Source of the DNA: Muribaculaceae bacterium
Lineage (GTDB): Bacteria; Bacteroidota; Bacteroidia; Bacteroidales; Muribaculaceae
Reading direction: 5' to 3'
DNA: 62,865 bases
Assembly: GCA_022509065.1 (NCBI GenBank)
Contig: JAFLTY010000009.1
Coordinates: forward strand, 1-62,865
Under the pieces are notes generated by a model. The model was not told where the DNA came from. It saw nothing but the letters and a program-made list of their open reading frames with translations, and did not search any database. The translations under genes were made by a program, and so were the position numbers. This document shows, one piece after another, positions 6,522 to 24,652 of this stretch. The stretch's first letter is position 1; each line of letters opens with the position of its first letter.

Positions 6522-6569
6522 AGATAAAGACGTTTGGATAAACCATCCTAAACGAGAAATTTGTGATTG

Positions 6570-6600
6570 CAAAGATACACATTATTTATAAATATTCAAA
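6570..6600 (-). promoter_or_regulatory. Full consensus promoter of the ECF sigma operon
   Basis: Minus strand: TTTG (6600-6597), 19-base spacer, TATCTTTG (6577-6570). It is an exact match to the housekeeping Bacteroidota promoter TTTG-N19/21-TAnnTTTG. It fixes the sigma gene start at 6521. Confidence 0.85.
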
Positions 6601-6727: not shown

Positions 6728-6735
6728 TAACTTTG
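6728..6735 (+). promoter_or_regulatory. -7 element of the nuo-atp operon
   Basis: TAACTTTG matches TAnnTTTG. No TTTG is found 19-21 bases upstream, so the -33 box is weak or absent. Transcription would start near 6742, leaving a leader of about 90 bases before nuoA. It is the only consensus-like box found ahead of or inside the gaps of the 18-kb gene set. Confidence 0.6.
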
Positions 6736-6833: not shown

Positions 6834-7214
6834 ATGATAGCTTTAGATATTTTTGGAATTTCTAATAACGCCTTGCTTGCAGTTACGGCGGCTATAACCG
6901 GCGCCGGACTTGTAGGTTTGGCGATGTGGATTGCAGGACTTATTTCGCCAAAATCTTTTAATCCGCAAAAAGGAGAACCGTACGAATGTGGGATACCGAC
7001 ACGAGGTGAATCAATGTCACAGTTTCGTGTCGGCTATTATTTGTATGCGATACTCTTTTTGATGTTTGATGTAGAGACAGTTTTTCTGTTTCCCTGGGCT
7101 GTACAGATGCGCGAATTAGGCGTAGGCGGCATCATCAGCATAGCGGTATTTTTCTGCATATTAGTATTAGGCCTCGTATATGCGTGGCGCAAAGGAGCAC
7201 TTGAATGGAAGTAA
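6834..7214 (+). CDS. nuoA: NADH-quinone oxidoreductase subunit A
   Basis: 126 residues, small membrane subunit of complex I in the cytoplasmic membrane. Three hydrophobic segments (about 13-35, 68-88, 97-117) flank the conserved loop with PYECGIP (54-60) and FDVETVFLFPW. It leads the complex I operon, and its last 10 bases overlap nuoB, indicating translational coupling. Confidence 0.95.
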   Translation: MIALDIFGISNNALLAVTAAITGAGLVGLAMWIAGLISPKSFNPQKGEPYECGIPTRGESMSQFRVGYYLYAILFLMFDVETVFLFPWAVQMRELGVGGIISIAVFFCILVLGLVYAWRKGALEWK

Positions 7215-7810
7215 CTACAAAATCGATGCCCTACGAGGCATTTAAAGACAACGAATACATAGAGAAGCTTGTAGAAGAGCTTCGCGCCAACGGTACGAAC
7301 ATCATAGTAGGCTCGTTGGACAAACTAATCAACTGGGGGCGGTCTAACTCACTCTGGCCACTTACTTTCGCCACCAGTTGTTGCGGTATCGAATTCGTGT
7401 CGCTTGGAGCGGCTCGTTTCGATATGGCTCGTTTTGGCTGGGAAGTAGCTCGCGCTTCGCCTCGCCAAGCCGACTTTATGATGGTCGCCGGCACAATAGT
7501 GAACCGTATGGTTCCGGTATTCCGTCGTCTGTACGACCAGTTGGCTGAACCCAAATATGTGATAGCCTGTGGCAGTTGCGCCATTTCGGGCGGACCGTTC
7601 CGTAAAAGCTATCATGTGGCGAAGGGTATAGAGGATATAGTGCCGGTAGATGTTTTCGTACCCGGTTGTCCGCCTCGCCCCGAAGCCATGATATACGGCA
7701 TCATGCAGTTGTCGCGTAAAATCAAGGTTGAAAAATTTTTCGGAGGCGTAAACCGTCAGGAAAAACAGGAAGAGTTTCTCAAGCAGCATCCAATAAGCGA
7801 TGTCGACTAA
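7205..7810 (+). CDS. nuoB: NADH-quinone oxidoreductase subunit B (N2 cluster)
   Basis: 201 residues. Peripheral-arm subunit that holds iron-sulfur cluster N2, the last electron carrier before quinone. The four ligand cysteines are visible: adjacent C59-C60 (SCCG), C125 (CGSC) and C155 (PGCPPRPE). It lies between nuoA, which it overlaps by 10 bases, and the fused nuoCD gene 12 bases downstream. Confidence 0.96.
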   Translation: MEVTTKSMPYEAFKDNEYIEKLVEELRANGTNIIVGSLDKLINWGRSNSLWPLTFATSCCGIEFVSLGAARFDMARFGWEVARASPRQADFMMVAGTIVNRMVPVFRRLYDQLAEPKYVIACGSCAISGGPFRKSYHVAKGIEDIVPVDVFVPGCPPRPEAMIYGIMQLSRKIKVEKFFGGVNRQEKQEEFLKQHPISDVD

Positions 7811-7822
7811 TAACAACACATT

Positions 7823-9451
7823 ATGGCTTCATTAAAAGAAATAATATCAGAATTGCAGCCGTCTGCAACCTTCGAAGAAGTTGACGGTATACTAACGGTG
7901 ACTGTTGACGACGCTTATTGGCACGATTTGGCTTATGCCCTTCGGCATGACGAGCGCTTGTCGATGGATTTTCTTGTAACCATAATAGGCGTTGACCATG
8001 TTACTTCGCTCGGGTGTGTTTATGAATTGATGTCGACGGAACATAATAGCAAAGTCTCTGTTCAGGTATCGACAACTGACCGTACCAATCCGATGTTACA
8101 TTCGGTAGCAGATCTTTGGGCGGTAGCCACGTTGTTCGAGCGCGAGGTATATGACTTCTTTGGTATCATATTCATCAATAACCCTGACATGCGTCGACTT
8201 TTCCTTAGTGTTGACTGGAAAGGTTATCCTTTACGCAAGGATTATGACGAGTCACCAGAATTGAATCCTGTATCGACAGACAACGAACGCATCTGTGACA
8301 CCACCGACCGTTGGGTTGAAAAAGACGGACAGATAGTAAAAGAAACCGTCGAGGTTTTCAAACCCGGCGACTTTGTCGTAAACATCGGCCCGCAGCACCC
8401 TGCCACACATGGTGTGTTGCGTTTCCGCACCGCTCTTGACGGTGAGGAGATAAAGAAGATAGATGTCTATATGGGTTACATACATCGTGGAGTTGAAAAG
8501 CTTTGTGAGACGCAGATGTATCCACAGACCCTACATTATATGGATCGTCTGGACTATTTTTCGGGACAGAACTATCATCATGGTTTGTGCATACTGTACG
8601 AGCGAGCAGCCGGCATTGAAATTAGCCGTCGCGCGCAGGTTATACGTGTCATGATGGACGAACTGTCACGTATAGCCAGTCACTGTCTGTTTATAGGCAC
8701 CTATTGCATGGACTTGGGAGCAACGACTATGCTTTTTTACACACTGCGCGTCCGCGAGCAGATACTCGACATAATGGAGAAGACATGCGGAGCACGCATG
8801 ACATTCAATTATTCGTGTATCGGCGGTGTGATGCAGGATCTGGCGCCTGACTTCGTACAGGATGTTAAAGCCTTGTTGGCCGTTCTTCCCGCCAATATAA
8901 AAGAGTATAACAAGATTTTTACCGGCAACATCATCGCCAAGAATCGAATGGAAGGTGTGGGCAAACTGACACGCGAAGACGCCATCAGTTATTCCATCAC
9001 GGGACCGTCGGGACGAGCCAGTGGCTGGGCATGCGATATACGTAAATGGCAGCCCTACAGCATTTATAACGAGCTTGAATTTGATGAGATTATCGCTCAT
9101 GAAGGAGATTCGATGGCTCGTTTTAAAGTTCGCATGGCCGAAATGGAACAGTCAGCTCGTATTCTCGAACAGCTTGTGGATAATATCCCGGAAGGCGAAT
9201 ATTGCGTGAAAGTTCCAAAGATGCTCAAACTGCCTAAAGGCAGTTGGTGGCAGCTTGTCGAAGGCTGTCGCGGAGCTTGCGGTTTTTACCTTGAGAGTGA
9301 CGGTGGCGCCAAGCCTTACCGCCTGAAGATAGCACCTCCGTGTCTGCCTCTGGCCGGAGTCGTTGATCATATAACCTCGGGACTAAAGATAGCCGACCTG
9401 ATTACCGTTGGCGGATCGTTGGACTACATAGTTCCGGATATGGATCGTTAA
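7823..9451 (+). CDS. nuoCD: Fused NADH-quinone oxidoreductase subunits C/D
   Basis: 542 residues. The N-terminal ~150 residues are the NuoC (30-kDa) part, with VADLWAVATLFEREVYDFFGI and GYPLRKDY. After a linker, the NuoD (49-kDa) part begins near 180 with NIGPQHPATHG, whose His belongs to the quinone pocket, and ends with DYIVPDMDR. The fusion is common in Bacteroidota and enterobacteria. There is no insertion or break. The next gap is 99 bases and contains no terminator. Confidence 0.96.
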   Translation: MASLKEIISELQPSATFEEVDGILTVTVDDAYWHDLAYALRHDERLSMDFLVTIIGVDHVTSLGCVYELMSTEHNSKVSVQVSTTDRTNPMLHSVADLWAVATLFEREVYDFFGIIFINNPDMRRLFLSVDWKGYPLRKDYDESPELNPVSTDNERICDTTDRWVEKDGQIVKETVEVFKPGDFVVNIGPQHPATHGVLRFRTALDGEEIKKIDVYMGYIHRGVEKLCETQMYPQTLHYMDRLDYFSGQNYHHGLCILYERAAGIEISRRAQVIRVMMDELSRIASHCLFIGTYCMDLGATTMLFYTLRVREQILDIMEKTCGARMTFNYSCIGGVMQDLAPDFVQDVKALLAVLPANIKEYNKIFTGNIIAKNRMEGVGKLTREDAISYSITGPSGRASGWACDIRKWQPYSIYNELEFDEIIAHEGDSMARFKVRMAEMEQSARILEQLVDNIPEGEYCVKVPKMLKLPKGSWWQLVEGCRGACGFYLESDGGAKPYRLKIAPPCLPLAGVVDHITSGLKIADLITVGGSLDYIVPDMDR

Positions 9452-9550
9452 CAAAGACTCTTTCCGAACAAACGACTAATCGCGATTTAAGACATTCATA
9501 CTCTTTTCTCTTTGAAATACAACCAATCAACAATCGACTAACCAATCGTT

Positions 9551-10633
9551 ATGCAAGATTTCGCAGTCATTACAAACTGGATTCATGATTTTCTGATTAG
9601 CACACTCGGTTTGCCCACGTGGCTAACTGTGACGATAGAGTGTGTCGCTATCGGAATTGGATTGCTATTGCTGTATGCATTGCTGGCCTTATTCTATATT
9701 TACTTTGAACGTAAACTTTGTGCCGCCTTTCAATGCCGCCTCGGGCCCAACCGAGTAGGACCCTGGGGTTTGTTGCAGAGTTTCGCCGATATGTTTAAAA
9801 TTCTCATTAAGGAGCTTATTGAGCTAAAAAACATTGATAAGTTTCTGTTTGCGCTGGCTCCTTATCTGGTTATTATCGCCTCGATGCTTGCCTTTGCGGT
9901 GCTTCCATGGGGTAACGGATTGCAGATAATAGATTTCAACATCGGTATATTTTTCCTTATCGCAGTTTCCTCGATAGGCGTGTTGGGAATACTGCTTGCC
10001 GGTTGGTCGTCGAACAACAAATTTACTCTTATCGGAGCCCTTCGTTCAGGATCTCAGATGGTTAGCTATGAACTGTCTATAGGGTTATCGGTACTTACCA
10101 TGGTATGTCTTGCCGGTTCGATGTCAGTCGGTGATATAGTTGCAGAACAAAACCGCATGTGGTTTATATTCAGCGGACATTTACCTGCCATCATAGCCTT
10201 CATCATTTATATGATTGCCGGAACCGCTGAAACCAATCGTGGCCCGTTTGACTTGCCTGAAGCCGAGAGTGAGCTGACAGCAGGTTATCACACTGAGTAT
10301 TCGGGAATACACTTCGGCTTTTTCTATCTCGCCGAGTATCTGAATCTGTTTATTGTGAGCGGTGTTGCTGCGCTACTGTTCTTCGGCGGTTGGATGCCAT
10401 TGCATTTCCCGGGTTGGGATACATTCAACCACATCATGGACTATATACCCGGTGTGATATGGTTCCTCGGAAAAGCGTTTGTGCTGTCGGCCATCATAAT
10501 ATGGTTTAAGTGGACCTTCCCCCGTCTGCGTATTGACCAGATGCTCAACCTTGAATGGAAATATCTGTTACCCATCAATTTGGTCAATCTCGTGCTGATG
10601 GCATGCATCATAATTTTTGATTGGAAAATTTGA
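9551..10633 (+). CDS. nuoH: NADH-quinone oxidoreductase subunit H
   Basis: 360 residues, about eight membrane segments. It is the membrane subunit joining the quinone site to the proton-pumping arm. Conserved loops are present: [20 protein letters not shown] and [17 protein letters not shown]. In most Bacteroidota nuoI follows directly. Here the next gene is atpD, 50 bases on, and nuoI is found only after the whole ATP synthase gene set. Confidence 0.96.
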
Positions 10634-10647
10634 TACTGAAAAAATAA

Positions 10648-12186
<1,539 letters not shown>

Positions 12187-12298
12187 TAATGACGAAAAAG
12201 AGCCTGTAAATCACGCTTGTTTGCAATTTATCGAATGTTGTGCAATGCAACTCCACATTTAATCAATACCGATAGTAAAATTACCAATCCTTGAAATC

Positions 12299-12556
12299 AT
12301 GACACTCAAAATAATTTCGACAACCGAAGTATTATTTGAAGGAGAAGTAAGCCTGGTCAGCCTTCCCGGCACGCTGGGGCGGTTTACGGTATTGAATAAT
12401 CACGCCTCGTTGATATCCACATTGACAAGTGGTAAGATAGGATATAAAACAGGAGACAATGTGTTGCATGACAATGGCGGATATGAAGGAGAGTTTGAAA
12501 TTAAGGGCGGCATAGCCGATATTGATAACAATATAATATCTGTCTGCGTATATTGA
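12299..12556 (+). CDS. atpC: ATP synthase F1 subunit epsilon (short form)
   Basis: 85 residues: only the N-terminal beta-sandwich (SLPGTLGRFTVLNNHASLIS, then EIKGGIADI). The C-terminal two-helix domain that inhibits ATP hydrolysis in longer epsilon subunits (about 130-140 residues) is absent. Short epsilons are known in Bacteroidota, so this looks native and not truncated. It follows a 112-base gap after atpD with no recognisable signal, and lies 35 bases before atpB. Confidence 0.9.
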   Translation: MTLKIISTTEVLFEGEVSLVSLPGTLGRFTVLNNHASLISTLTSGKIGYKTGDNVLHDNGGYEGEFEIKGGIADIDNNIISVCVY

Positions 12557-12591
12557 TAGCTTCAATAAAAAATGATATTCTTTTCAGAGAC

Positions 12592-13740
12592 ATGACCCGA
12601 ATACTCAAAATATTTTTAATTACCGTTATCAGCGTTTTTGTCGGAACGCCCGCGACATTAGCGTCGGATCATAACGGAGACGAAGCTATCAACCCCAAGG
12701 AATTGATATTTGAGCACCTCGGTGACGGATATGGTTGGGAGGCTCCTTTCCAGCATCATATTCGTATTCCGTTGCCTGTTATTGTAAAAGCATCCGATGG
12801 TTTCCATATCTTTATGTCCTCGAAAGTAGCCGATGGCAAAATCTACAAAGACGGGGACGTAGAATTTAAGATAGCCGGCAAAGACAGCCCCTACAAAGGC
12901 AAGGTTGTTGAAATACGAAACGGAGAGGAGATAAAGCCATCAATCGATATTTCGATTACCAAAAACGTAGCAGCTATTTTTGTGTCTATTATCATTGTAG
13001 TAGGTTTGCTGCTGTGGTTGGCTTCATATCATCGTCGTCATCCATACAAAACGCCGCGTAAAGGACTTGGAGCTATCGAAGCCTTAATGACTTTCATATA
13101 TGACAGTGTCGTTAAATCGACTCTAAAAGACCAGGCGCGTCGTTTCGCACCATATTTATTGTCGGTTTTCTTCTTCATTTTCGTAATGAATCTGTTGGGT
13201 CTTATCGTAGTGTTCCCCGGAGGTGCTAACCTGACGGGCAATATAGCGGTTACCCTTGTTCTGGCAATACTTACTTTCCTGGTAACGAATATTTTCGGTA
13301 CCAAGCATTATTGGAAAGAGATATTCTGGCCGGATGTTCCCCTTTGGCTCAAATTCCCGCTCCCCATCATGCCTCTTATAGAGATATTCGGTATGTTTAC
13401 CAAACCGGCGGCACTGACAGTACGTCTTTTCGCCAATATGATGGGTGGACATATGATTGTACTGGTACTTACCTTACTCATATTTATCTTTGCAGCGGTT
13501 AACCCGGTAGCAGGTGGTGCCACCACCGTTGTCTCGGTACTGTTTTCAATATTCATGTTGCTGATTGATGTACTTGTTAGCTTTATACAGGCGTATGTGT
13601 TCACTATGTTGTCGACAATCTTCATCTCGTTGGCTCAAGAGCGCGAACACAAAGCCGAGGAGAAACATCAAAAAGAAACAGAGCAACAGTCAGCATCGTC
13701 CAAATCCGCAGTAACCGCGGTAACCGTCGCCAATAATTAA
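12592..13740 (+). CDS. atpB: ATP synthase Fo subunit a
   Basis: 382 residues from the ATG at 12592; an upstream in-frame TTG overlapping the atpC stop is judged spurious. The N-terminus is a signal peptide (MTRILKIFLITVISVFVGTP) followed by a periplasmic region of about 110 residues before the first core membrane helix, then the usual helices. The essential proton-path Arg is in AALTVRLFANMMGGHM. The C-terminal ~30 residues are hydrophilic and rich in K/E/Q/S. The N-terminal extension is typical of this phylum. Confidence 0.93.
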   Translation: MTRILKIFLITVISVFVGTPATLASDHNGDEAINPKELIFEHLGDGYGWEAPFQHHIRIPLPVIVKASDGFHIFMSSKVADGKIYKDGDVEFKIAGKDSPYKGKVVEIRNGEEIKPSIDISITKNVAAIFVSIIIVVGLLLWLASYHRRHPYKTPRKGLGAIEALMTFIYDSVVKSTLKDQARRFAPYLLSVFFFIFVMNLLGLIVVFPGGANLTGNIAVTLVLAILTFLVTNIFGTKHYWKEIFWPDVPLWLKFPLPIMPLIEIFGMFTKPAALTVRLFANMMGGHMIVLVLTLLIFIFAAVNPVAGGATTVVSVLFSIFMLLIDVLVSFIQAYVFTMLSTIFISLAQEREHKAEEKHQKETEQQSASSKSAVTAVTVANN

Positions 13741-13794
13741 TAGTGAGAGAAATTTTAACTTAAATAATCAATCAAACCAAATAATAATAATTAA

Positions 13795-14046
<252 letters not shown>

Positions 14047-14079
14047 AACAAACGTTTTTACACCGCAACCTACGTCCGC

Positions 14080-14099
14080 GCGGGCAGTTTTTAGCCCGC
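14080..14099 (+). promoter_or_regulatory. GC-rich hairpin between atpE and atpF
   Basis: GCGGGC - 8-base T-rich loop - GCCCGC. No T-run follows, so it is not a standard terminator. In a polycistronic message it could protect the atpE 3' end or slow read-through, helping make excess c subunit, but this is inference from position. Confidence 0.5.
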
Positions 14100-14167
14100 C
14101 GGGCATAGGTACAAGAAATGTGACGCACTGCGAATAAAAAATCCGTAACATTACAACACAACCCTGT

Positions 14168-14665
14168 ATGGAACTATTTACGCCTGATTTTGGCCTTATT
14201 TTCTGGATGTTTGTCGGTTTTGCCGTACTTTTCATCATTTTGTGGAAGTTCGCTTGGCCGGTAATATTGAAGACAGTAGATAACAGAGCCGAACTGATAG
14301 ATAAAGGTGTCGAATACGCTCAAAATGCAAAAGAGCAATTGGACAACGCCCGTAATGAGGCTCAGAAATACATTGACGATGCACGTCGTCAGCAGGCTGA
14401 CATGTTGCGCGAAGCTGACAAGATGAAAAATCAAATCATCGAAGAGGCCAGGGGCGCCGCTCAAAAAGAAGCGCAGAAAGTCATGGCTCAAGCCAAGTTG
14501 TCTATTGAGCAGCAGCAAAAAGAGGCGGAAGCCCAGTTCAAAAATCAAGTAAGCGATTTCGCTCTACAGATTGCGGGCAAAATAGTCAAAGACAGAGTAT
14601 CAAATGACGAAGCTCAATCGCAGCTTGTAAATACATATCTTGATCAGCTCGAAAACAAAAACTAA
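14168..14665 (+). CDS. atpF: ATP synthase Fo subunit b
   Basis: 165 residues. One N-terminal membrane helix (about 8-30, LIFWMFVGFAVLFIILWKF) is followed by a long charged coiled coil forming the peripheral stalk that holds F1 to Fo. Length is normal. It is separated from atpE by 121 bases and from atpH by 31. Confidence 0.94.
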   Translation: MELFTPDFGLIFWMFVGFAVLFIILWKFAWPVILKTVDNRAELIDKGVEYAQNAKEQLDNARNEAQKYIDDARRQQADMLREADKMKNQIIEEARGAAQKEAQKVMAQAKLSIEQQQKEAEAQFKNQVSDFALQIAGKIVKDRVSNDEAQSQLVNTYLDQLENKN

Positions 14666-14696
14666 CATATCGTTTTAAGAATTATTTCATATCACG

Positions 14697-15236
14697 ATGG
14701 ACAAAGGATTACTGCCGCGCCGTTACGCAAAAGCCCTATATAAATTCGCAACCGAAAAAAAACAGTCCGAGACTGTTTATAAGGCTATGCGCAATATTTT
14801 GGCGGCTTTCGAAACGAATCGAGAGCTGAGGGTAACTATTTCTAATCCTTTTGTTTCCGAACATGATAAAGCAAGTTTGATTGACAGCGCTGCCGGCATG
14901 CAAAACTCGGTTTTAGAGGATTTTGTTAAATTGCTTGCACAAAACAACCGGCTTGACATAATGCGCGAGGCAGCTCTTGCCTATACTACTCTTTACCGAC
15001 AGGAAAACAACATACATCTTGTTCATATCACTTCGGCTGCTCCATTGTCTGACGCAGATAAAAAACGCCTTACTGATATGATAGAGAAACATATTGACGG
15101 TGCGACTGCTGAATTCTCTTTCGAAGTCAATCCAGATTTGATAGGCGGTTTTGTTGTCAAACTGGACAACGAAAGTCTGGATGCCAGCGTTCGTAATCAA
15201 CTTGATCAATTGAGACAAAGCCTGATAACAAAATAA
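14697..15236 (+). CDS. atpH: ATP synthase F1 subunit delta
   Basis: 179 residues. Stalk subunit linking the b dimer to the top of the alpha/beta hexamer. It starts LLPRRYAKALYKFATEKKQ and contains the C-terminal signature NPDLIGGFVVKLDNESLDAS. Normal length. 69 bases precede atpA. Confidence 0.93.
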   Translation: MDKGLLPRRYAKALYKFATEKKQSETVYKAMRNILAAFETNRELRVTISNPFVSEHDKASLIDSAAGMQNSVLEDFVKLLAQNNRLDIMREAALAYTTLYRQENNIHLVHITSAAPLSDADKKRLTDMIEKHIDGATAEFSFEVNPDLIGGFVVKLDNESLDASVRNQLDQLRQSLITK

Positions 15237-15305
15237 GCCGCAATAAAAGAGCATAACAAACCTCTCTCAACAATATAACAGAAAATTCGTAAACCTGACA
15301 TAAAA

Positions 15306-16877
15306 ATGATTAAACCAAGCGAGATTTCGGAAGTTCTCAAACAGCAACTCGAAAACATTAACACCACAGTGACATTCGAAGAAACCGGCAAGGTACTTGA
15401 GGTAGGAGACGGTGTCGCACATGTATATGGACTGGATAATGTTCGAGCTAACGAACTTGTTGAATTTGAAAACGGAGTCAAAGGTGTCGCCCTCAATCTT
15501 GAAGAGAGTAATGTCGGTGTCATTCTGATGGATCGTGTCAACACAATATCCGAGGGAATGACCGTAAAACGAACCGGACAGATAGCCTCCATACCTGTTG
15601 GAGATGGGGTTTTCGGTCGCGTCATCAATGTGCTTGGCGAGCCGATAGACGGACAAGGCGCCATAGAAGGCAATCTCATTCGCCTTCCTCTTGAACGCAA
15701 AGCACCCGGCGTTATTTATCGACAGCCGGTAAATCAGCCGTTGCAGACGGGTATCAAGGCCGTCGATGCAATGGTGCCCATAGGTCGTGGGCAGCGCGAA
15801 CTTATAATAGGCGACAGACAAATAGGTAAAACTGCAATCGCGATAGACACTATCATTAATCAACGAGCCAACTTTGAGGCCGGCAAACCTGTCTATTGCA
15901 TATATGTGGCCATAGGGCAGAAAGCCTCGTCTGTGGCAGCCACTGTCGATACATTGCGTAAGCATGGAGCGCTTGATTACACAGTGGTTGTAGCTGCTAC
16001 AGCATCCGACTCGGCCTCGATGCGCTATTATGCACCTTTTGCAGGAGTCGCTATTGGTGAATATATTCGCGATACCGGTCGCGATGCGTTGATTGTTTAC
16101 GATGATTTGTCCAAACAGGCTGTCGCATACCGTGAAATTTCGCTTATTTTGAAACGTCCCTCTGGTCGCGAAGCTTATCCCGGTGATATCTTCTATCTGC
16201 ATAGCCGCCTCTTGGAGCGTGCTGCAAAAATTATTGATAATCAGGAAGTGGCATCGAAAATGAACGACCTCCCAGCAGCGCTTAAACCTTTGGTTAAAGG
16301 TGGAGGTTCGCTTACCGCCTTACCAATTATCGAGACACAGGCAGGTGACGTTTCGGCATATATACCGACCAACGTTATTTCGATTACCGACGGTCAGATA
16401 TTTCTTGAGACAGCGCTGTTCAACCGCGGTATCCGTCCTGCTATCAATGTCGGTATATCTGTATCACGTGTAGGTGGTAATGCGCAGATTAAATCGATGA
16501 AGAAAGTTGCCGGTACATTGAAAATTGACCAGGCACAGTTCCGCGAATTGGAATCATTTACCAAATTCGGTGGTGACATGGATCCCGTCACGGCTCGAGT
16601 TATCGATAAAGGACGTAAAAACGAACGACTGCTCATCCAACCACAATATCACCCATGGGCTGTCGAAGATCAAGTTGCAGTTATTTATTGTGGAGTTAAT
16701 GGTTTGCTCGAAAACGTGCCTATGGATAAGGTTTCTGAATTTGAGAAACAATTCATACAGTTGCTTCACGCCCGTCACGCCGATGATGTACTAGCTGTCA
16801 TCAAGAGTGGCAAACTGACAGACGACGTTACTGACAAATTGACTAAAGCCGCTGCAGAAATAGCCGGACAGTTCTGA
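15306..16877 (+). CDS. atpA: ATP synthase F1 subunit alpha
   Basis: 523 residues, non-catalytic nucleotide-binding subunit. P-loop GDRQIGKT at 169-176; the alpha signature PAINVGISVSRVGG lies in the C-terminal half. Full length, with no insertion. Long open frames on the opposite strand (up to 311 codons) are shadows of its codon pattern. Confidence 0.96.
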   Translation: MIKPSEISEVLKQQLENINTTVTFEETGKVLEVGDGVAHVYGLDNVRANELVEFENGVKGVALNLEESNVGVILMDRVNTISEGMTVKRTGQIASIPVGDGVFGRVINVLGEPIDGQGAIEGNLIRLPLERKAPGVIYRQPVNQPLQTGIKAVDAMVPIGRGQRELIIGDRQIGKTAIAIDTIINQRANFEAGKPVYCIYVAIGQKASSVAATVDTLRKHGALDYTVVVAATASDSASMRYYAPFAGVAIGEYIRDTGRDALIVYDDLSKQAVAYREISLILKRPSGREAYPGDIFYLHSRLLERAAKIIDNQEVASKMNDLPAALKPLVKGGGSLTALPIIETQAGDVSAYIPTNVISITDGQIFLETALFNRGIRPAINVGISVSRVGGNAQIKSMKKVAGTLKIDQAQFRELESFTKFGGDMDPVTARVIDKGRKNERLLIQPQYHPWAVEDQVAVIYCGVNGLLENVPMDKVSEFEKQFIQLLHARHADDVLAVIKSGKLTDDVTDKLTKAAAEIAGQF

Positions 16878-16930
16878 TTTTACGTAGGAATAGTAAAAGA
16901 AATAATTTCCAATCCCTGATTTAGAAAACA

Positions 16931-17815
16931 ATGGCTACACTACGCGAACTTAAAGGACGAATCGGCTCGGTGGCATCTTCCGAAAAGATTACGGGAGCCA
17001 TGAAGATGATTTCGTCAGCCAAGATGCATAAGGCTGAAGGCTCATTGCGTCGTCTCGTGCCCTTTAAGACACAGATAGAGAGCATAATGGCCAATCTCCT
17101 CTCGTCCGATGCTACTTTCTCCTCGCCATTGACAGAGTCCCATAGCGAAATACAACGAATCATTGTTGTGGTGTGGGGTTCCGATGACGGTCTTTGTGGT
17201 GCATATAATGTCAATGTTTGCAAGGGGTTGACCGAAAAGATAAAAACTTACCGATCAAGCTATCCGGAGGCCGAGATAGAAATCATGACCATAGGCAAGA
17301 AGATGTACAAAGCCGCATCGGCTTTGGGTTCTGGGTATGGAGTTAAAGTTACGGCTGCTTCTCTCGATTCAAAATCCGAGGGTAAAACAGTTGACAACTT
17401 TATGCTTGATTTACAAAACATGTTTTCTACCCGCAGAGCCGACCTTATAGAAGCCGTGTATATGCATTTCAAAACAGCTGGACGACAAGTGTTGACTAAC
17501 GTACAGTTGTTACCCATAGTACCAGAACTTTTTAATAACGGGCAGAAAACTGAAAGCAGTCGCCCTTATCTTTTCGAACCGGATGCCAATGCAATATTTA
17601 ATGCTGTGTTGCCAATGTTTTTGTTGTCGACTATGCAGGAAATATTCATTGAGAACCGAGCTTCGGAACAAGCCGCACGAGTTATGGCAATGCAAAGTGC
17701 CAACGACAATGCGAAAACCCTTCTTGAGGATCTCAACCTCGAATATAATAAATTGAGGCAACAATCCATCACAAGCGAATTGCTGGATATAGTCGGAGGA
17801 CAATCCAGAGAATAA
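16931..17815 (+). CDS. atpG: ATP synthase F1 subunit gamma
   Basis: 294 residues, the rotating central shaft. Conserved N-terminal coiled coil (LKGRIGSVASSEKITGAMKM) and C-terminal helix with MQSANDNAKTLLEDLNLEYN. It is the last atp gene; 71 bases later nuoI resumes complex I on the same strand, with no terminator and no TAnnTTTG box in the gap. Confidence 0.95.
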   Translation: MATLRELKGRIGSVASSEKITGAMKMISSAKMHKAEGSLRRLVPFKTQIESIMANLLSSDATFSSPLTESHSEIQRIIVVVWGSDDGLCGAYNVNVCKGLTEKIKTYRSSYPEAEIEIMTIGKKMYKAASALGSGYGVKVTAASLDSKSEGKTVDNFMLDLQNMFSTRRADLIEAVYMHFKTAGRQVLTNVQLLPIVPELFNNGQKTESSRPYLFEPDANAIFNAVLPMFLLSTMQEIFIENRASEQAARVMAMQSANDNAKTLLEDLNLEYNKLRQQSITSELLDIVGGQSRE

Positions 17816-17886
17816 AAAGACAATATAAAGTCGCGAAAGCGCACTAAACAAGAAATATAAACGAACAAAACCTAAATAACCAATCA

Positions 17887-18522
17887 ATGGGTAGTGTAAA
17901 AGATTATTTTAAAACACTTGGGACCGGGGTTGCAAGTTTGCTTAAAGGCATGCAGGTTACCGGAAAAGAATTTATTACTCCCAAGATTACTGAACGTTAC
18001 CCCGAAGACCGCGAAACCAGGCATGTACCTGCAAGATTCCGCGCGTTACTTCAGTTGAAGTACGACGAGCAGGGATTCTGTAAATGTACGGCTTGCGGAA
18101 CATGCGAGCGTAACTGTCCTAACGGTACCATCACGATTGAAACAAAAATGGTGGATACATGGAAAGGAAAAAAGAAAAAACTGGATAAATATATTTATGA
18201 CCTGGGCAGTTGTACTTTCTGCGATCTGTGTGTGACTACATGTCCTTTCGATGCACTGGAATTCACGAACGATTTCGAACAATCGGTATTCACACGTAGT
18301 AAGCTTATCAAGACGCTAAACGACCGTCCCGAACCCCCGGAACCGGAACCTACTCCTGAGGAACTGGCCGCATACAAAGCTCAGCAGGAAAAAATTGCAG
18401 CGGCAAAAGCGGCCGCAGCCGCTAAGGCGCCCGCAGCCAAAACAGCAGACACGACGACTGTCGAAACACCTAAAAAAGCAGACCAGACATCCGATTCAGC
18501 TACACAATCAAATGTTGAATAA
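17887..18522 (+). CDS. nuoI: NADH-quinone oxidoreductase subunit I (two 4Fe-4S clusters) with Ala/Lys/Pro tail
   Basis: 211 residues. Ferredoxin-like subunit passing electrons through clusters N6a and N6b. The ligands are two CxxCxxCxxxCP sets: C67/C70/C73/C77 and C109/C112/C115/C119. From about residue 147 the protein continues as a Pro/Glu- then Ala/Lys-rich low-complexity tail of about 65 residues, unlike the compact enterobacterial NuoI (about 180 residues). It is separated from nuoH by the eight atp genes. Confidence 0.94.
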   Translation: MGSVKDYFKTLGTGVASLLKGMQVTGKEFITPKITERYPEDRETRHVPARFRALLQLKYDEQGFCKCTACGTCERNCPNGTITIETKMVDTWKGKKKKLDKYIYDLGSCTFCDLCVTTCPFDALEFTNDFEQSVFTRSKLIKTLNDRPEPPEPEPTPEELAAYKAQQEKIAAAKAAAAAKAPAAKTADTTTVETPKKADQTSDSATQSNVE

Positions 18523-18569
18523 TCGATTAGTCTGACTATAATTCGAAAAATTACACAAAAAAGATAAAA

Positions 18570-19088
18570 ATGGAATCAGTAGGAAGTATCATCATGTACT
18601 TTATCATTGCGTTGGCAATGATAGTATTCTCGATACTGGCCGTAACATCACGCAAAATACTTCGTTCGGCCACATACTTGCTTTTCACACTGTTTGCCGG
18701 TGCCGGCGTGTATTTTATGCTGGATTATGAATTTCTTGGCGCCGTACAGATAGCAGTATATGCGGGTGGTATCGTTGTTTTATTCGTTTTTGCCATTTTG
18801 TTGACATCTAAACCCGGTGACAACACAGATAAACTTACTTCAAAATCGAAATGTATGGGTCTGGTTGCCGCTATAGCCACACTCATAGTTTCGGGCTATG
18901 CTTTGTTGACACGGGCAAATCTTTTCGGACAGCTACCCGAGATGTCTAATCCGGATATGCATACAATCGGTAGTCATCTTATCGGTACGACAGAGGCTTC
19001 CGGCGACTATCTCTTGCCCTTCGAGGCTGTCAGCGTACTGTTGCTCGCTTGTATTATCGGAGGTATTGTCGTAGCGCGTAAACGTTAA
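18570..19088 (+). CDS. nuoJ: NADH-quinone oxidoreductase subunit J
   Basis: 172 residues with five predicted membrane helices. The conserved stretch GAVQIAVYAGGIVVLFVFAILL forms the helix that couples quinone reduction to pumping. It is followed 19 bases later by nuoK. Confidence 0.95.
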   Translation: MESVGSIIMYFIIALAMIVFSILAVTSRKILRSATYLLFTLFAGAGVYFMLDYEFLGAVQIAVYAGGIVVLFVFAILLTSKPGDNTDKLTSKSKCMGLVAAIATLIVSGYALLTRANLFGQLPEMSNPDMHTIGSHLIGTTEASGDYLLPFEAVSVLLLACIIGGIVVARKR

Positions 19089-19107
19089 TCTTTAAATTGT
19101 ACAGACA

Positions 19108-19419
19108 ATGGAAATTACCGCAATTTATTACCTCATACCCAGTCTGATTATGTTTTGTGCCGGAGTTTATGGTTTCATAACTCGCAAAAACATGATTGCA
19201 ATGCTGATTTCGTTAGAGCTGATGCTCAATGCCGTAGATATCAACTTTGTCGTGTTCAATCGCTATCTGTTCCCCGGAGCGCTTGAAGGAATGTTCTTCA
19301 CGTTATTCGCTATCGCCATCGCCGCTGCCGAGACTGCAGTAGCTATTGCGATTATAGTCAATATTTTCCGATCCGCCAAAAACGTTGACGTGCATTCGCT
19401 TGATAAAATGAAATTTTGA
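19108..19419 (+). CDS. nuoK: NADH-quinone oxidoreductase subunit K
   Basis: 103 residues, three membrane helices, an MrpC-like antiporter-derived subunit. Conserved ISLELMLNAVDINFV has the first membrane Glu, and AAAETAVAIAIIV the second. Both are used in proton translocation. Normal length. Confidence 0.95.
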   Translation: MEITAIYYLIPSLIMFCAGVYGFITRKNMIAMLISLELMLNAVDINFVVFNRYLFPGALEGMFFTLFAIAIAAAETAVAIAIIVNIFRSAKNVDVHSLDKMKF

Positions 19420-19456
19420 AGGTTATTGAAAGACACTATTGAAAAAACTATAAAAA

Positions 19457-21406
19457 ATGAATATAACACTTCCAATACTTATCCTTGCCATACCGTTAGG
19501 CATGTTCCTGTTATTAGGTATTGCCGGATGCAAGATGAGTCACAAGACAGCCGGATGGTTGGGCACATTGGGCATGGGTACCACAGCAGTACTCGCTTAT
19601 ATAGTGGCCTTTACCTATTACTTCAGTGGCAATCCCGATTTTATCAATGCCGAGACCGGCCAACGATTGCCGTATGAAATACTGTTTACCCCGGACGGAT
19701 GGCTTTCGTTTACTGATAATCTTCAGATAAACCTTGGTTTCTATCTTGATTCCATATCAGCGTTGATGCTAATAGTAATTACCACTATATCATTTTGTGT
19801 CCATCTTTACAGTCACGGTTATATGGAAGGAGAGAAAGGTTTTCAGCGCTATTTCGCTTTTCTTTCGCTGTTCTCTTTCTCGATGCTTGGTCTGGTAGTT
19901 GCCACCAATATATTCCAGATGTATATCTTCTGGGAACTTGTGGGAGCTTCATCCTACCTTTTGATAGGTTTTTACTATACGAAACACAGTGCAGTCTCTG
20001 CTTCGAAAAAAGCATTCATTGTTACGCGTTTTGCTGACTTAGGCTTTTTGCTCGGCATCCTGTTGCTGTCGTATTATACCGACACGTTTAATTTCTTTAA
20101 ACTCACATCGGATCCTGCGTCCGTATTGGCTTCGACCGGAGGTGCGACATTTATGGGCGCTTCGGTACTGACATGGGCACTCGTACTTATCTTTATGGGA
20201 GGTATGGGTAAATCTGCCATGATGCCGCTACATATATGGTTGCCGGATGCTATGGAAGGTCCGACACCGGTATCTGCGCTTATCCATGCCGCAACAATGG
20301 TTGTAGCCGGAGTGTTCCTTGTCGCCCGTATGTTCCCTGTCTATATGATGGAGATATCGGCCACTATGATAATAGCTGTTGTGGGTGCCGTTACCGCTTT
20401 CTACGCTGCAATGGTGGCATGCACACAAATTGACATCAAACGTGTGTTAGCGTTCTCAACTATCTCTCAGATAGCCTTTATGATGGTAGGATTGGGTGTT
20501 GCATCGGCCGGTTATGGCGAAGTGAGTCATCATGGACTCGGTTACATGGCCTCGATGTTCCACTTGTTTACACACGCCATGTTCAAAGCTCTGCTCTTCT
20601 TAGGAGCCGGTGCTCTGATACATGCGGTACACAGCAACGACTACACCGCAATGGGTGGTCTGCGTAAGTATATGCCAATCACTCATATAACTTTCCTCAT
20701 TGGCTGTCTTGCGATAGCCGGTATACCACCTTTCAGTGGATTCTTCTCCAAAGATGAGATTCTCAGCGCCGCTTATGCTTGGAGTCCCTTCATGGGGGTT
20801 TGGATGACTATAGTTGCCGGTTTGACGGCTTTCTATATGTTCCGTCTTTATTATCTAATTTTCTGGTGGAACAATCCGGATTACGGTCACCATAAACCGC
20901 ACGAAGCACCGTGGCCAATGGCAACTCCGCTGATTTTCCTTGCCGCAGTATCGTGTGTGGCCGGCTTTATTCCTTTCGGACATTTTGTCACATGGAACGG
21001 CATGCCTTACGATATTCATCTCGAAGCATCGGTCGCTATAACCAGTGTTTGCGTGGCAGTTCTTGCCATAGTTATCGCGACAGTGATGTACATGAAAGAG
21101 AACAATCTGCCGCGGACATTCAAGAATGCCGTACCCGCACTTTGGAGATGGTGTTATCATCGTTTCTATTGGGACGAACTCTATATGTTCATAACCCATA
21201 AGATTATATTTAACGGTATTTGTCGTCCAATAGCATGGTTTGATCGCCATATTATAGATGGAACCATGGACGGCTTCGCAACAATCACTAACAAAGCCTC
21301 GTGGTCAATACGTGGGTTGCAGTCCGGTCAGGTGCAAATGTATGTATGGATTTATCTTATCGGCGCGCTTTTGCTCGGAATTATCACGACCTTGTGCCTG
21401 ATATGA
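19457..21406 (+). CDS. nuoL: NADH-quinone oxidoreductase subunit L (proton-pumping)
   Basis: 649 residues, about 16 membrane helices with the long lateral helix at the C-terminus. The antiporter signature is intact: WELVGASSYLLIGFYY, GMGKSAMMPLHIWLPDAMEGPTPVSALIHAATMV (in two overlapping parts), and AGIPPFSGFFSKDEIL. The key Lys and Glu residues of the pump channel are kept. Confidence 0.96.
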   Translation: MNITLPILILAIPLGMFLLLGIAGCKMSHKTAGWLGTLGMGTTAVLAYIVAFTYYFSGNPDFINAETGQRLPYEILFTPDGWLSFTDNLQINLGFYLDSISALMLIVITTISFCVHLYSHGYMEGEKGFQRYFAFLSLFSFSMLGLVVATNIFQMYIFWELVGASSYLLIGFYYTKHSAVSASKKAFIVTRFADLGFLLGILLLSYYTDTFNFFKLTSDPASVLASTGGATFMGASVLTWALVLIFMGGMGKSAMMPLHIWLPDAMEGPTPVSALIHAATMVVAGVFLVARMFPVYMMEISATMIIAVVGAVTAFYAAMVACTQIDIKRVLAFSTISQIAFMMVGLGVASAGYGEVSHHGLGYMASMFHLFTHAMFKALLFLGAGALIHAVHSNDYTAMGGLRKYMPITHITFLIGCLAIAGIPPFSGFFSKDEILSAAYAWSPFMGVWMTIVAGLTAFYMFRLYYLIFWWNNPDYGHHKPHEAPWPMATPLIFLAAVSCVAGFIPFGHFVTWNGMPYDIHLEASVAITSVCVAVLAIVIATVMYMKENNLPRTFKNAVPALWRWCYHRFYWDELYMFITHKIIFNGICRPIAWFDRHIIDGTMDGFATITNKASWSIRGLQSGQVQMYVWIYLIGALLLGIITTLCLI

Positions 21407-21479
21407 TGAGATTAGGCTATAAACCGACCAATGAACATTTATCGTCTTAACCAAGAACAGAAAAAACAATCATTAACCA

Positions 21480-23012
21480 ATGTTTAGTAATATACTGATA
21501 TATTTCGTGATCATCCCCCTCGTCATGTTGGCGGGGCTGGCACTTTGTCGCAACGTGAAACAGATACGTTCCGTGGCTGTTGTCGGGTCTTTATGCCTGA
21601 TAGGGCTTTCGGTATGGTTGCTTTGTGATTATTTGTCTCTTAGAGCTGCCGGAATAGATGCTCCCATGCTTTATACGGGTTCGTGGATGTGGTTTGAACC
21701 ACTTAACATTCATCTTGCTGTTGGAGTCGACGGTATCTCGATTGCGATGCTCCTTTTATCTTCGATCATTGTTTTCGCAGGTTCTTTCGCATCCTGGAAA
21801 ATAGAAGAGCCCAAGGCATTCTTCCTTTGGCTTATATTATTGTCGACCGGTGTCTTCGGATTCTTTATCTCGATTGACTTGTTCACCATGTTCATGTTCT
21901 ACGAGGTTGCTCTCATACCGATGTACCTTCTTATCGGTGTGTGGGGATCTGGCAACAAGAACTATTCGGCAATGAAACTGACCCTGATGCTCATGGGAGG
22001 GTCGGCATTCCTTATGTTGGGTCTTATTGGTATATATTATCACTCGGCTCCAGAAGGAGGTCAATTGACATGGAATATCCTTGAGATAGCGCAAAACGCG
22101 AGCATCAGCGAGGGTTGGCAATACTTCCTTTTCCCGATGACGTTTGTAGGTTTTGGTGTACTTGGGGCTATGTTCCCGTTCCACACATGGTCACCTGACG
22201 GTCACGCTTCAGCGCCCACAGCAGTATCCATGTTACACGCCGGCGTACTAATGAAACTTGGCGGATATGGATGTTTCCGTGTCGCCATCTATCTCATGCC
22301 ATTCGCCGCCAACGAACTTGCATGGATATTTCTTACGCTTACCGGCATATCGGTGGTTTACGGAGCGTTCAGTGCTTGCGTACAGACCGATTTGAAATAT
22401 ATAAACGCTTATTCGTCGGTGAGTCACTGTGGTATGGTGTTATTTGCCATTCTCATGTTTAACACCACAGCCATGTCAGGTGCTATTATGCAGATGTTGT
22501 CGCACGGTTTGATGACGGCACTCTTCTTCGCCTTGATAGGTATGATATATGGTCGTACACACACTCGCGATATACGACAGATGGGTGGATTACTCAAGAT
22601 AATGCCTTATCTGGGAGTCTGCTATGTAATAGCCGGTATGGCGTCGCTCGGTTTGCCCGGTCTGTCAGGATTTGTTGCAGAGATGACTATTTTTGTCGGT
22701 TCGTTTAAAGCCGGTATGCATGACTTGCTCAATGGCGCCGGCGCGCTACGTATAGCATTTACCGTGGCAGCATGCTGTGCTATTGTAATCACGGCAGTTT
22801 ACATACTCCGCGTTGTTGGCAAACTGCTCCAAGGCCCTGTTTACGATGAACATCACCTGACTTTGACAGACGCAACTTGGTGGGAACGCCTCTCGACTGT
22901 TACACTCATTGTTTGTGTCGCTGCTATCGGTTGTTTCCCGAACTTCTTTATTAAATTGATTGAAACCACGTTCAGTCCCGAAATCTTTAAGGTTATCGGT
23001 CTAAACCTTTAA
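21480..23012 (+). CDS. nuoM: NADH-quinone oxidoreductase subunit M (proton-pumping)
   Basis: 510 residues, about 14 membrane helices. Channel motifs seen: FYEVALIPMYLLIGVWG and MFPFHTWSPDGHASAPTAVS followed by HAGVLMKLGGYG. Normal length for NuoM. Gap of 73 bases from nuoL and 21 to nuoN, without regulatory signals. Confidence 0.96.
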   Translation: MFSNILIYFVIIPLVMLAGLALCRNVKQIRSVAVVGSLCLIGLSVWLLCDYLSLRAAGIDAPMLYTGSWMWFEPLNIHLAVGVDGISIAMLLLSSIIVFAGSFASWKIEEPKAFFLWLILLSTGVFGFFISIDLFTMFMFYEVALIPMYLLIGVWGSGNKNYSAMKLTLMLMGGSAFLMLGLIGIYYHSAPEGGQLTWNILEIAQNASISEGWQYFLFPMTFVGFGVLGAMFPFHTWSPDGHASAPTAVSMLHAGVLMKLGGYGCFRVAIYLMPFAANELAWIFLTLTGISVVYGAFSACVQTDLKYINAYSSVSHCGMVLFAILMFNTTAMSGAIMQMLSHGLMTALFFALIGMIYGRTHTRDIRQMGGLLKIMPYLGVCYVIAGMASLGLPGLSGFVAEMTIFVGSFKAGMHDLLNGAGALRIAFTVAACCAIVITAVYILRVVGKLLQGPVYDEHHLTLTDATWWERLSTVTLIVCVAAIGCFPNFFIKLIETTFSPEIFKVIGLNL

Positions 23013-23033
23013 TAAGCCAATACATTCAAAGCA

Positions 23034-24530
23034 ATGGATTATTCACAGTTTTTAGTAATGAAACAGGAAATAGGGCTTCTTGTCGTTTTCCTGCTGGTGT
23101 TTTTCTATGACTTGTTTATGCCTCAGGGCAGTCGTAAGTCATTACCCGGTTTCACGGCTTGCTGTATGACGGTACTTACCGTACTGGGTTTCTTTGCGTG
23201 CGCATGTTGTCCGTTCTTCTTGGGCAGCTCGCAGGAAGTATCGGCTTTTGGTGGAATGTATGAAACTTCGCCGGTGATATCTGCAATCAAAAATATACTC
23301 AATATCGGCGCTGTAATAGTACTCATCCAATCAGTCAAATGGGCCAACAACCAAAATATGCATATGAGACGCGGCGAATTTTACATGTTGCTTCTCGTTA
23401 CTTTGTTTGGTATGTATTTAATGATATCAGCTCGCCATTTCCTCCTCTTCGTTATTGGTCTGGAATGCGCCTCATTGCCACTCGCAGCTATGGTAGCACT
23501 CGACAAACAGCGTTACGAAAGTCAGGAAGCCGCTGTCAAATACATACTCACGGCTGTTTTCTCATCGGCTGTTTTCATGATGGGATTATCGTTTGTATAT
23601 GGCCTGACCGGAAGTTTGTATTTCCATAAAATATATATGGCAATAGCCGGTCCCAACTCGACATTGCTGATTGTCGCACTCGCTTTTGTTATGGCGGGAG
23701 TAGGATTCAAACTTTCGCTCGTTCCGTTCCACTTATGGACTGCTGACGTATATCAAGGAGCGCCGACATCTGTAACATCCTATCTTTCGGTTATTTCGAA
23801 AGGAGCCACAGCTTTCGCTTTCTTGGTGATTTTCTTCCAAGCTTTCGGATGTGTTTATCATCAGGTGTGGGAATGGATGCTCTACGCACTGATTATTCTT
23901 ACTATTACGCTGGGTAACCTTTTTGCTCTCCGTCAACGCGACATGAAACGCTTCCTGGCATTTTCGTCTGTAAGCCAAGCCGGTTATATCATGCTTGGTA
24001 TCATAGGTAACAATACAATGGGAGTCGCCGCCTTGATGTATTATATACTTGTGTATATTTTCAGCAATCTCGCAGCGTTCGGTGTCATCGGTGCTATTGA
24101 GAACGCTACAGGCAAAGTGTCTATGGACGATTACCGCGGACTTTCTAAAACTAATCCCCGTCTTGCGTTCGCAATGATGCTGGCGATGTTCTCTCTTGCA
24201 GGCATACCTCCATTCGCCGGCTTCTTCAGTAAGTTCTTCATTTTCACATCGGCTATCAACGCAGGAACTACTGCTATTTATGTTCTTGTACTCATTGCTC
24301 TTATCAACACAATAATATCGCTTTACTATTATCTCCTTGTGGTTAAAGCTATGTATATCAGTCCTGATGAGTGTCCCGTCCAACATTTCAAATCGAGCTG
24401 TAGCGAGCGCCTTGCGCTTGGACTCACTGTTGCCGGTATCATGTTTATAGGCCTGGTAAGCCCGATTTATAACTGGTTGCTTAACCTGACTTCCGATGCA
24501 CCGGGATTGCTGACTTGGTTTGTTCAATAA
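23034..24530 (+). CDS. nuoN: NADH-quinone oxidoreductase subunit N (proton-pumping)
   Basis: 498 residues, about 14 membrane helices. Conserved GLECASLPLAAMVALD, KLSLVPFHLWTADVYQGAPT and AGIPPFAGFFSKFFIF are present. It is the last gene of the nuo-atp set. No nuoE, nuoF or nuoG is found anywhere in the window, so the enzyme has the 11-subunit form without the NADH module, and its electron donor is not encoded here with certainty. Confidence 0.96.
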   Translation: MDYSQFLVMKQEIGLLVVFLLVFFYDLFMPQGSRKSLPGFTACCMTVLTVLGFFACACCPFFLGSSQEVSAFGGMYETSPVISAIKNILNIGAVIVLIQSVKWANNQNMHMRRGEFYMLLLVTLFGMYLMISARHFLLFVIGLECASLPLAAMVALDKQRYESQEAAVKYILTAVFSSAVFMMGLSFVYGLTGSLYFHKIYMAIAGPNSTLLIVALAFVMAGVGFKLSLVPFHLWTADVYQGAPTSVTSYLSVISKGATAFAFLVIFFQAFGCVYHQVWEWMLYALIILTITLGNLFALRQRDMKRFLAFSSVSQAGYIMLGIIGNNTMGVAALMYYILVYIFSNLAAFGVIGAIENATGKVSMDDYRGLSKTNPRLAFAMMLAMFSLAGIPPFAGFFSKFFIFTSAINAGTTAIYVLVLIALINTIISLYYYLLVVKAMYISPDECPVQHFKSSCSERLALGLTVAGIMFIGLVSPIYNWLLNLTSDAPGLLTWFVQ

Positions 24531-24543
24531 TATTCAGCATATT

Positions 24544-24575
24544 TTTGTACAATATAGGATAGTTTTATAATTTTG
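24544..24575 (+). promoter_or_regulatory. Consensus promoter 1 of panC-panD
   Basis: TTTG (24544-24547), 20-base spacer, TAATTTTG (24568-24575). The start of transcription would be near 24582, directly before an inverted repeat AACCGG (24585-24590) / CCGGTT (24607-24612) in the leader. Confidence 0.8.
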
Positions 24576-24630
24576 CACTTCTGAAACCGGTTGCATGATG
24601 TTGCGGCCGGTTAAAGTGTGAAAAAAGAAG

Positions 24631-24638
24631 TATCTTTG
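24631..24638 (+). promoter_or_regulatory. Possible second -7 box before panC
   Basis: TATCTTTG fits TAnnTTTG but has no TTTG 19-21 bases upstream. It would give a transcript with fewer than 10 leader bases before the panC ATG. It is weaker than promoter 1. Confidence 0.4.
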
Positions 24639-24652
24639 AATCGCATCAAACA

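Follow-up and report, generated by a model that had tools for sequence, protein, structure and literature searches.

The stretch of DNA analysed here (the window, 62,865 nucleotides (nt) of a Muribaculaceae bacterium) carries the eight genes of an F-type ATP synthase inside the operon of respiratory complex I. Genes for these two complexes usually stand in different places and are under separate control. In the window, nuoA-B-CD-H, atpD-C-B-E-F-H-A-G and nuoI-J-K-L-M-N follow each other as 18 open reading frames (ORFs), all on the plus strand between 6834 and 24530, and each of them matches the NCBIfam profile of the expected subunit family. The original prediction, made from the letters of the window, had given just this order, with gaps of 50 nt between nuoH and atpD and of 71 nt between atpG and nuoI; all of this was confirmed exactly. 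We hold it for quite probable that the arrangement goes back to a single ancestral insertion with vertical inheritance, and that in Muribaculaceae the nuoA promoter serves a single transcription unit of about 17.7 kb. The complex I operon of the ancestor that seven Bacteroidales families share would have encoded 11 subunits and no NADH module; an intact ancestral atpDCBEFHAG set would have entered it between nuoH and nuoI in a single event, with both sets pointing the same way. The families would have passed on the merged locus by vertical descent. In Muribaculaceae, transcription of all 18 genes would then begin before nuoA, the promoter that atp once had of its own having disappeared together with the strong fold that other families have between atpG and nuoI.

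The spread of the merged locus was followed in 295 genomes drawn evenly from the order Bacteroidales, to which the search was confined. A NuoH-type match was found in 171 and an AtpG match in 255 of these genomes. Among the matches listed, which were paired by eye with weakly matching genomes left unpaired, 21 genomes have NuoH and AtpG on one strand at a distance of about 7 kb; in a 22nd carrier (G190) the merged layout is cut by contig ends. The carriers span seven families, i.e., the window's own (f1, four genomes) and f109, f22, f60, f28, f68 and f88 with three genomes each, and no counter-example occurs in these families among the genomes listed (22/22 carry the merger). Furthermore, nuoI follows atpG in all genomes examined of f109 (9), f68 (7) and f22 (9). 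The comparison of nuoH–nuoI neighbourhoods that had been proposed with the prediction thus places the merger in seven families, and it is absent from all 20 checked genomes of twelve others (f106, f24, f59, f30, f9, f91, f20, f47, f5, f113, f41 and f100). There, nuoH lies directly beside nuoI, and the matched atp genes form a separate operon of the same order as in the window, with atpD and atpC unmatched in L145, atpD to atpB in L149 and atpH in L150, and with L131, L134 and L154 cut off.

On a nuo tree of 43 rows, the 24 carrier rows form one side of one branch with a support of 100, and on an atp tree of 41 rows with a support of 98, both trees being quick ones, the nuo tree with a simpler model, in neither of which the chosen outgroup rows form one side of a branch. 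The carrier label needs only one change on either tree, which, together with the unfused relatives, bears out the earlier claim of a clean insertion of one operon into the other. As the carriers share one branch on both trees, the merger should have arisen once; from the sequences it looks like an old, single event common to seven related families. Inside the carriers, f88 splits first on both trees, followed by a separation of f60, f68 and f28 from f1, f109 and f22. Horizontal gain of the merged unit was considered and left no sign, the nuo and atp trees agreeing on the main splits inside the carriers. They differ for f106: the nuo tree groups it with f24, and the atp tree, whose rows do not include f24, sets it on a long stem beside the carriers. 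The nuo tree does not recover f60 as a single clade.

Two unmerged neighbourhoods were seen in passing. In G106 of f106 (L154), the atp and nuo genes are transcribed towards each other across a distance of 11 kb; genes read by eye as map and gph lie between them, and these also follow atpG in G290 (L156). In G200 (f100, L174), both sets are on the same strand, with nuoA beginning about 6 kb downstream of the end of atpA-atpG.

Within the family, we compared the window with the best 80 of 368 confirmed matches, whose NuoH is 79–89% identical to that of the window; it is by this likeness only that the window's genome is placed in Muribaculaceae (S24-7). The titles of these named relatives include Muribaculaceae, Paramuribaculum intestinale, Duncaniella muris and Candidatus Amulumruptor; some titles of metagenome-assembled genomes read Bacteroides, Barnesiella, Porphyromonadaceae, Clostridium or Paenibacillus, which we took as mislabelled or old names. 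Gene order is collinear with the window in 80/80 named loci as far as their DNA reaches. The DNA reaches atpD in 79 of them (L098 ends earlier; 78 under a stricter cut-off), nuoI follows atpG in all 56 that reach atpG, and 54 hold all 16 genes from nuoA to nuoL. The counted loci are related and not independent, and one genome appears twice in the per-family box counts given below (L044, L111). That the layout is an assembly artefact, a possibility raised with the prediction, might be entertained for a genome lying in 91 contigs, but the collinear loci and the occurrence of the layout in a single-contig genome (G292) leave this explanation practically no room, and it was rejected. Two seeming exceptions were likewise set aside. 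In G235 (L044/L111), nuoJ-N lie elsewhere on the scaffold with a gap of 100 N beside the broken end in both places, and in L080 a run of N interrupts the beta gene; these N runs, which split the unit on G235 scaffold C11 (L111, L173) or the beta gene, are likely scaffolding errors.

In the text consulted of PMC7366714, TAnnTTTG is given as the −7 promoter consensus. A box of this type in the window, TAACTTTG, stands 106 nt before nuoA and likely marks the start of the shared message. The prediction had seen no further box in any gap after 6728, and this holds on the plus strand up to the end of nuoN. Plus-strand occurrences at 6848, 6913, 10737, 12975, 13001, 13485 and 22688 are all within coding sequence, and one at 13806 overlaps the atpE start codon. 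A simple terminator scan of the window listed no plus-strand site in either joint, as had been claimed. The scan for sigma-70 type promoters (52 found, 36.4 expected) and the terminator scan (20 versus 18.0) were not used as functional evidence.

The comparison between loci is more telling. Boxes were counted when TAnnTTTG occurred within 300 nt upstream of a gene, expectations (given in brackets) came from letter shuffles, and one promoter type was scanned. Fused loci have a box before nuoA in 77/86 cases (14.8) and before atpD in 6/99 (11.8); unfused loci have it before atpD in 12/13 (2.8) and before nuoA in 9/16 (2.1). For Muribaculaceae, with one genome counted twice, the box precedes nuoA in 70/70 loci and atpD in 1/83, and for the other six carrier families the counts are 9/18 and 5/18, three of the latter five being from f88. 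Hence, a box that most carriers keep before nuoA, that is mostly gone before atpD and that is kept at the unfused atpD gives comparative support to the single message of the original prediction. It seems that the separate atp promoter was lost after the merger, f88 perhaps excepted, and one RNA spanning nuoA to nuoN is predicted from these comparisons. Production of the sole F-type ATP synthase of the cell would thereby be tied to complex I through transcription.

Several observations weigh against one message read from nuoA. All three f88 genomes have a box before atpD and none has one before nuoA, and their atp genes may start on their own. The nuoA box is also absent in f60 (0/3) and in two of three f68 genomes. 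Boxes in fused loci exceed shuffles before nuoL (20/75, 8.1 expected) and nuoI (9/76, 3.5) and slightly so before atpE (11/78, 7.0), because of which internal transcription starts are possible within the unit. The nuoH–atpD gap folds at −10 kcal/mol or below in 10/80 Muribaculaceae loci, and the atpD–atpC, atpE–atpF and atpH–atpA gaps of the window are wider than the family median. In four sister families, a hairpin described below could end many transcripts at atpG–nuoI. Finally, according to the part of PMC7002350 consulted, Bacteroides fragilis expresses its nuo operon poorly in rich medium, and such low expression would be costly if ATP synthase depended on nuo.

From these points one may argue that the operons are fused only on the map, with an atp promoter of its own inside the 3′ end of nuoH and another promoter for nuoI-N, so that amounts are set apart. 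Such a view can draw on the f88 boxes, on a box within 300 nt before nuoI in 7/56 named loci, on the excess before nuoI and nuoL and on the restriction of the scan to one promoter type. We nevertheless find separate promoters improbable: a box before atpD occurs in a single Muribaculaceae locus out of 83 and in fewer fused loci than shuffles predict, compared with nearly all unfused ones, and nuoH–atpD gaps among fused loci shrink to as little as 17 nt.

A single transcription unit does not imply equal amounts. The original prediction had it that one message would lock the amounts of both complexes together. Such a lock is no necessary consequence, since a strong hairpin stands in the distal joint of related families that share the layout, and since ATP synthase subunits are needed in unequal amounts anyway. 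In gaps of at least 25 nt, we counted a fold as strong at a minimum free energy (MFE) of −10 kcal/mol or below. By this measure, the atpG–nuoI gap is strongly folded in 12/15 loci of the six other carrier families (z of −2 or below in 9/15), compared with 0/16 nuoH–atpD gaps and 0/59 other gaps of the same loci (z of −2 or below in 4/75 of both kinds together). With further genomes added, the strong fold was found in f109 in 9/9, in f68 in 7/7 (three identical), in f22 in 9/9 and in f60 in 2/3 genomes, and was mostly absent from f88 (1/3) and f28 (0/3, gaps of 6–17 nt). In the five families for which z was computed, a value of −2 or below was reached by six genomes of f109, six of f68, nine of f22, two of f60 and none of f88. 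The f22 hairpin covaries: 13/24 pairs are changed on both sides, a level reached in 0/500 shuffles and destroyed by sliding the pair partners, as counted on 8/9 rows (L117 left out) with a structure derived from the same alignment. In f109, 5/16 pairs are changed on both sides, and the alignment folds weakly. In Muribaculaceae, the atpG–nuoI gap folds strongly in only 2/58 loci, and the window has a small hairpin there in place of a strong one (Table 1).

The sister-family hairpin may derive from the former terminator of the atp operon. The 100 nt after atpG have a z of −2 or below in 8/19 unfused loci; a strict scan for a stem with T-run in the 60 nt after atpG found it in 7/77 fused and 4/19 unfused loci, and the f22 hairpin is without a T-rich tail. 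The structure may perhaps have been recruited to halt transcription in part or to hold up RNA decay, in analogy to the Rhodobacter puf operon, in which an intercistronic hairpin sets the subunit ratios of antenna versus reaction centre (texts consulted of PMC6238624 and PMC5927463). In sister families, the likeness lies in an operon that holds the genes of two complexes with a strong hairpin in between; the genes are, however, unrelated to those of puf, and the window itself has a small fold only. A working decoupler in f109, f22, f68 and f60, which would yield more atp than nuoI-N message, would suit the confinement of strong folds to atpG–nuoI, their near-constant presence in these four families and the f22 covariation. 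Against this, f88 and f28 mostly lack the hairpin, z stays above −2 in 3/9 genomes of f109 and 1/7 of f68, three f68 gaps are identical, few fused atpG gaps pass the strict scan, and 8/19 unfused atp operons also end in a strong fold, so the structure is perhaps a mere leftover. We thus regard decoupling as conceivable, with the odds somewhat against it.

Two further elements were observed in intergenic gaps. In f109, about 20–40 nt around GTTAAC are near-invariant downstream of the variable atpG–nuoI hairpin (L114:12287-12380 and eight relatives, 9/9 genomes of one genus); a regulator site or a translation element is possible. In Muribaculaceae, 11/22 atpE–atpF gaps of at least 25 nt fold at −10 kcal/mol or below, eight of them with a z of −2 or below, and a hairpin after atpE could favour the many-copy c subunit.

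Living families may preserve the steps of the merger, a reading that we put forward tentatively and to which we give less than even weight. First, nuo would have received an atp operon that brought along a promoter and a terminator, and f88 would still keep the promoter box before atpD. The families f109, f22, f68 and f60 would mostly have lost the promoter and turned the old terminator into a maintained hairpin, through which ATP synthase and the distal half of complex I would stay at different levels. The hairpin, too, would have been lost in Muribaculaceae and f28, leaving one unbroken message, with the V-type ATPase gone. In line with this, we read the hairpin as erased in nearly all Muribaculaceae and in f28.

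The merger could also have been kept by chance and linkage alone, selectively neutral and without regulatory meaning. One origin on the trees leaves but one event to explain, and amounts remain settable by translation and decay. No break of the layout was seen in seven families, however, despite varying gap lengths, and we consider pure chance rather unlikely. Once the atp promoter was lost, a later separation would be harmful, which would by itself explain the persistence of the merger. For the single transcription unit, the likeliest meaning is that two complexes on a shared proton circuit share their transcription, with subunit ratios set by translation and RNA decay.

Table 1. Features of the merged nuo-atp locus and its flanks in the window
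Feature	Position	Strand	Evidence and remarks
ECF-type (extracytoplasmic function) sigma factor gene	5958-6572		Divergent, upstream of nuoA
−7 type promoter box	6728..6735	+	106 nt before nuoA
nuoA	6834..7214	+	ORF, NCBIfam match
nuoB	7205..7810	+	ORF, NCBIfam match
nuoCD	7823..9451	+	ORF, NCBIfam match; fused C and D
nuoH	9551..10633	+	ORF, NCBIfam match
Proximal joint nuoH–atpD	10634..10683	+	50 nt; no box, no fold (MFE −0.3 kcal/mol)
atpD (beta)	10684..12186	+	ORF, NCBIfam match; 500 amino acids
atpC (epsilon)	12299..12556	+	85 amino acids; match spans about the first 80 of 130 profile positions
atpB (a subunit)	12592..13740	+	ORF open from TTG 12553; likely start ATG 12592
atpE (c subunit)	13807..14046	+	ORF, NCBIfam match
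atpE–atpF gap	14047..14167	+	Strong hairpin (MFE −34.1 kcal/mol, z −3.0)
atpF (b subunit)	14168..14665	+	ORF, NCBIfam match
atpH (delta)	14697..15236	+	ORF, NCBIfam match
atpA (alpha)	15306..16877	+	ORF, NCBIfam match
atpG (gamma)	16931..17815	+	ORF, NCBIfam match
Distal joint atpG–nuoI	17816..17886	+	71 nt; small hairpin only (MFE −5.9, z −2.6)
nuoI	17887..18522	+	ORF, NCBIfam match; long Ala/Lys-rich C-terminal tail
nuoJ	18570..19088	+	ORF, NCBIfam match
nuoK	19108..19419	+	ORF, NCBIfam match
nuoL	19457..21406	+	ORF, NCBIfam match
nuoM	21480..23012	+	ORF, NCBIfam match
nuoN	23034..24530	+	ORF, NCBIfam match; final gene of the unit
nuoN–panC gap, end of unit	24531..24652	+	Folded (MFE −33.4, z −3.3); three TAnnTTTG boxes
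panC	starts 24653		Downstream of nuoN

The window encodes a complete F-type ATP synthase (alpha, beta, gamma, delta, epsilon, a, b and c, by NCBIfam matches). NuoH and AtpG occur in one copy each in the window's genome, and a second F-type gamma or NuoH copy was looked for there and not found. Downstream of nuoN, the fold and the three boxes in the gap imply that panC transcription probably starts anew. The presence of nuoA, B, CD and H-N makes up the 11-subunit complex I set. A search of the window's genome for the NuoF domain PF10589 came up empty (0/1, 95% complete; 7/14 control genomes positive; NuoE and NuoG not searched), and the NADH-binding module thus seems to be absent from this complex I. 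Complex I of this kind in B. fragilis is thought to draw its electrons from an unknown donor, as stated in the text consulted of PMC7002350.

V-type subunit D (PF01813) was found in 0/22 carriers, and 6/10 unfused genomes tested were positive, as was the control Bacteroides ihuae. The embedded F-type enzyme hence looks like the sole rotary ATPase of the carriers; as these form one clade, the V-type absence counts as one event and not as a repeated link. The Nqr/Rnf family PF03116 was present in 32/32 genomes tested, of which 24 have two or more matches; the window's genome (G000) has a single one, and a second copy may be missing or unassembled. The c subunit reads VEGVALFA, without Ser/Thr after the presumed ion-binding Glu; set against the Na+ ligand pattern, this would fit protons as coupling ion.

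Two subunits have unusual lengths. The epsilon subunit is short (77–90 amino acids) in all 37 genomes where it was read, and the C-terminal helices known from other bacteria seem to be missing in all of them. NuoI of Muribaculaceae bears a C-terminal tail rich in Ala, Lys and Glu (57 loci, 190–295 amino acids, median 211; 180 in G025) and among the remaining genomes read mostly measures 146–169 amino acids, with exceptions of 327, 239, 211, 333 and 106 that are possibly misread ends. NuoI sits near the place at which the seemingly absent NADH module would dock.

The bare layout is already known for the lineage, contrary to the original prediction, which took it for a new arrangement. In 2016, Ormerod et al. 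reported for 'Ca. Homeothermaceae' (S24-7, now Muribaculaceae) a complex I locus that takes in an F-type ATP synthase, with one genome of the family (H5) without both complexes and with Nqr in most genomes (text consulted of PMC4936053). The family and the integration are the same there as here, the 11-subunit complex I there is without NuoEFG, as that of the window seems to be, and as in the S24-7 type all atp genes of the window lie between nuo genes on one strand. The concern that the layout might be well described thus holds for its novelty, although that description takes up little text; gene order, joints, promoter, hairpin and the spread to other families are given here and not in the text of PMC4936053 consulted. 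We found no second account of the layout in the open-licence literature, and earlier or wider reports may exist. As far as a search of that literature reaches, the age, spread, promoter loss and distal hairpin are undescribed. The nuo operon of B. fragilis (BF638R_0850-0841) comprises, without NuoEFG, the 11-subunit set that is also present in the window; it differs in that it runs through ten consecutive locus numbers with no atp genes mentioned within, in the text consulted of PMC7002350, which is consistent with the earlier statement that nuo and atp are separate in Bacteroides.

With the layout in print since 2016, the interest lies in its age, its spread and its joints. By comparing families in which promoter and hairpin are kept with others that lost them, one can put the steps of an operon merger to the test. 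In this lineage of abundant gut bacteria, a single promoter may serve both complexes, and complex I seems to be without its NADH module; the lineage lends itself as a natural test of complex I and ATP synthase as a matched pair.

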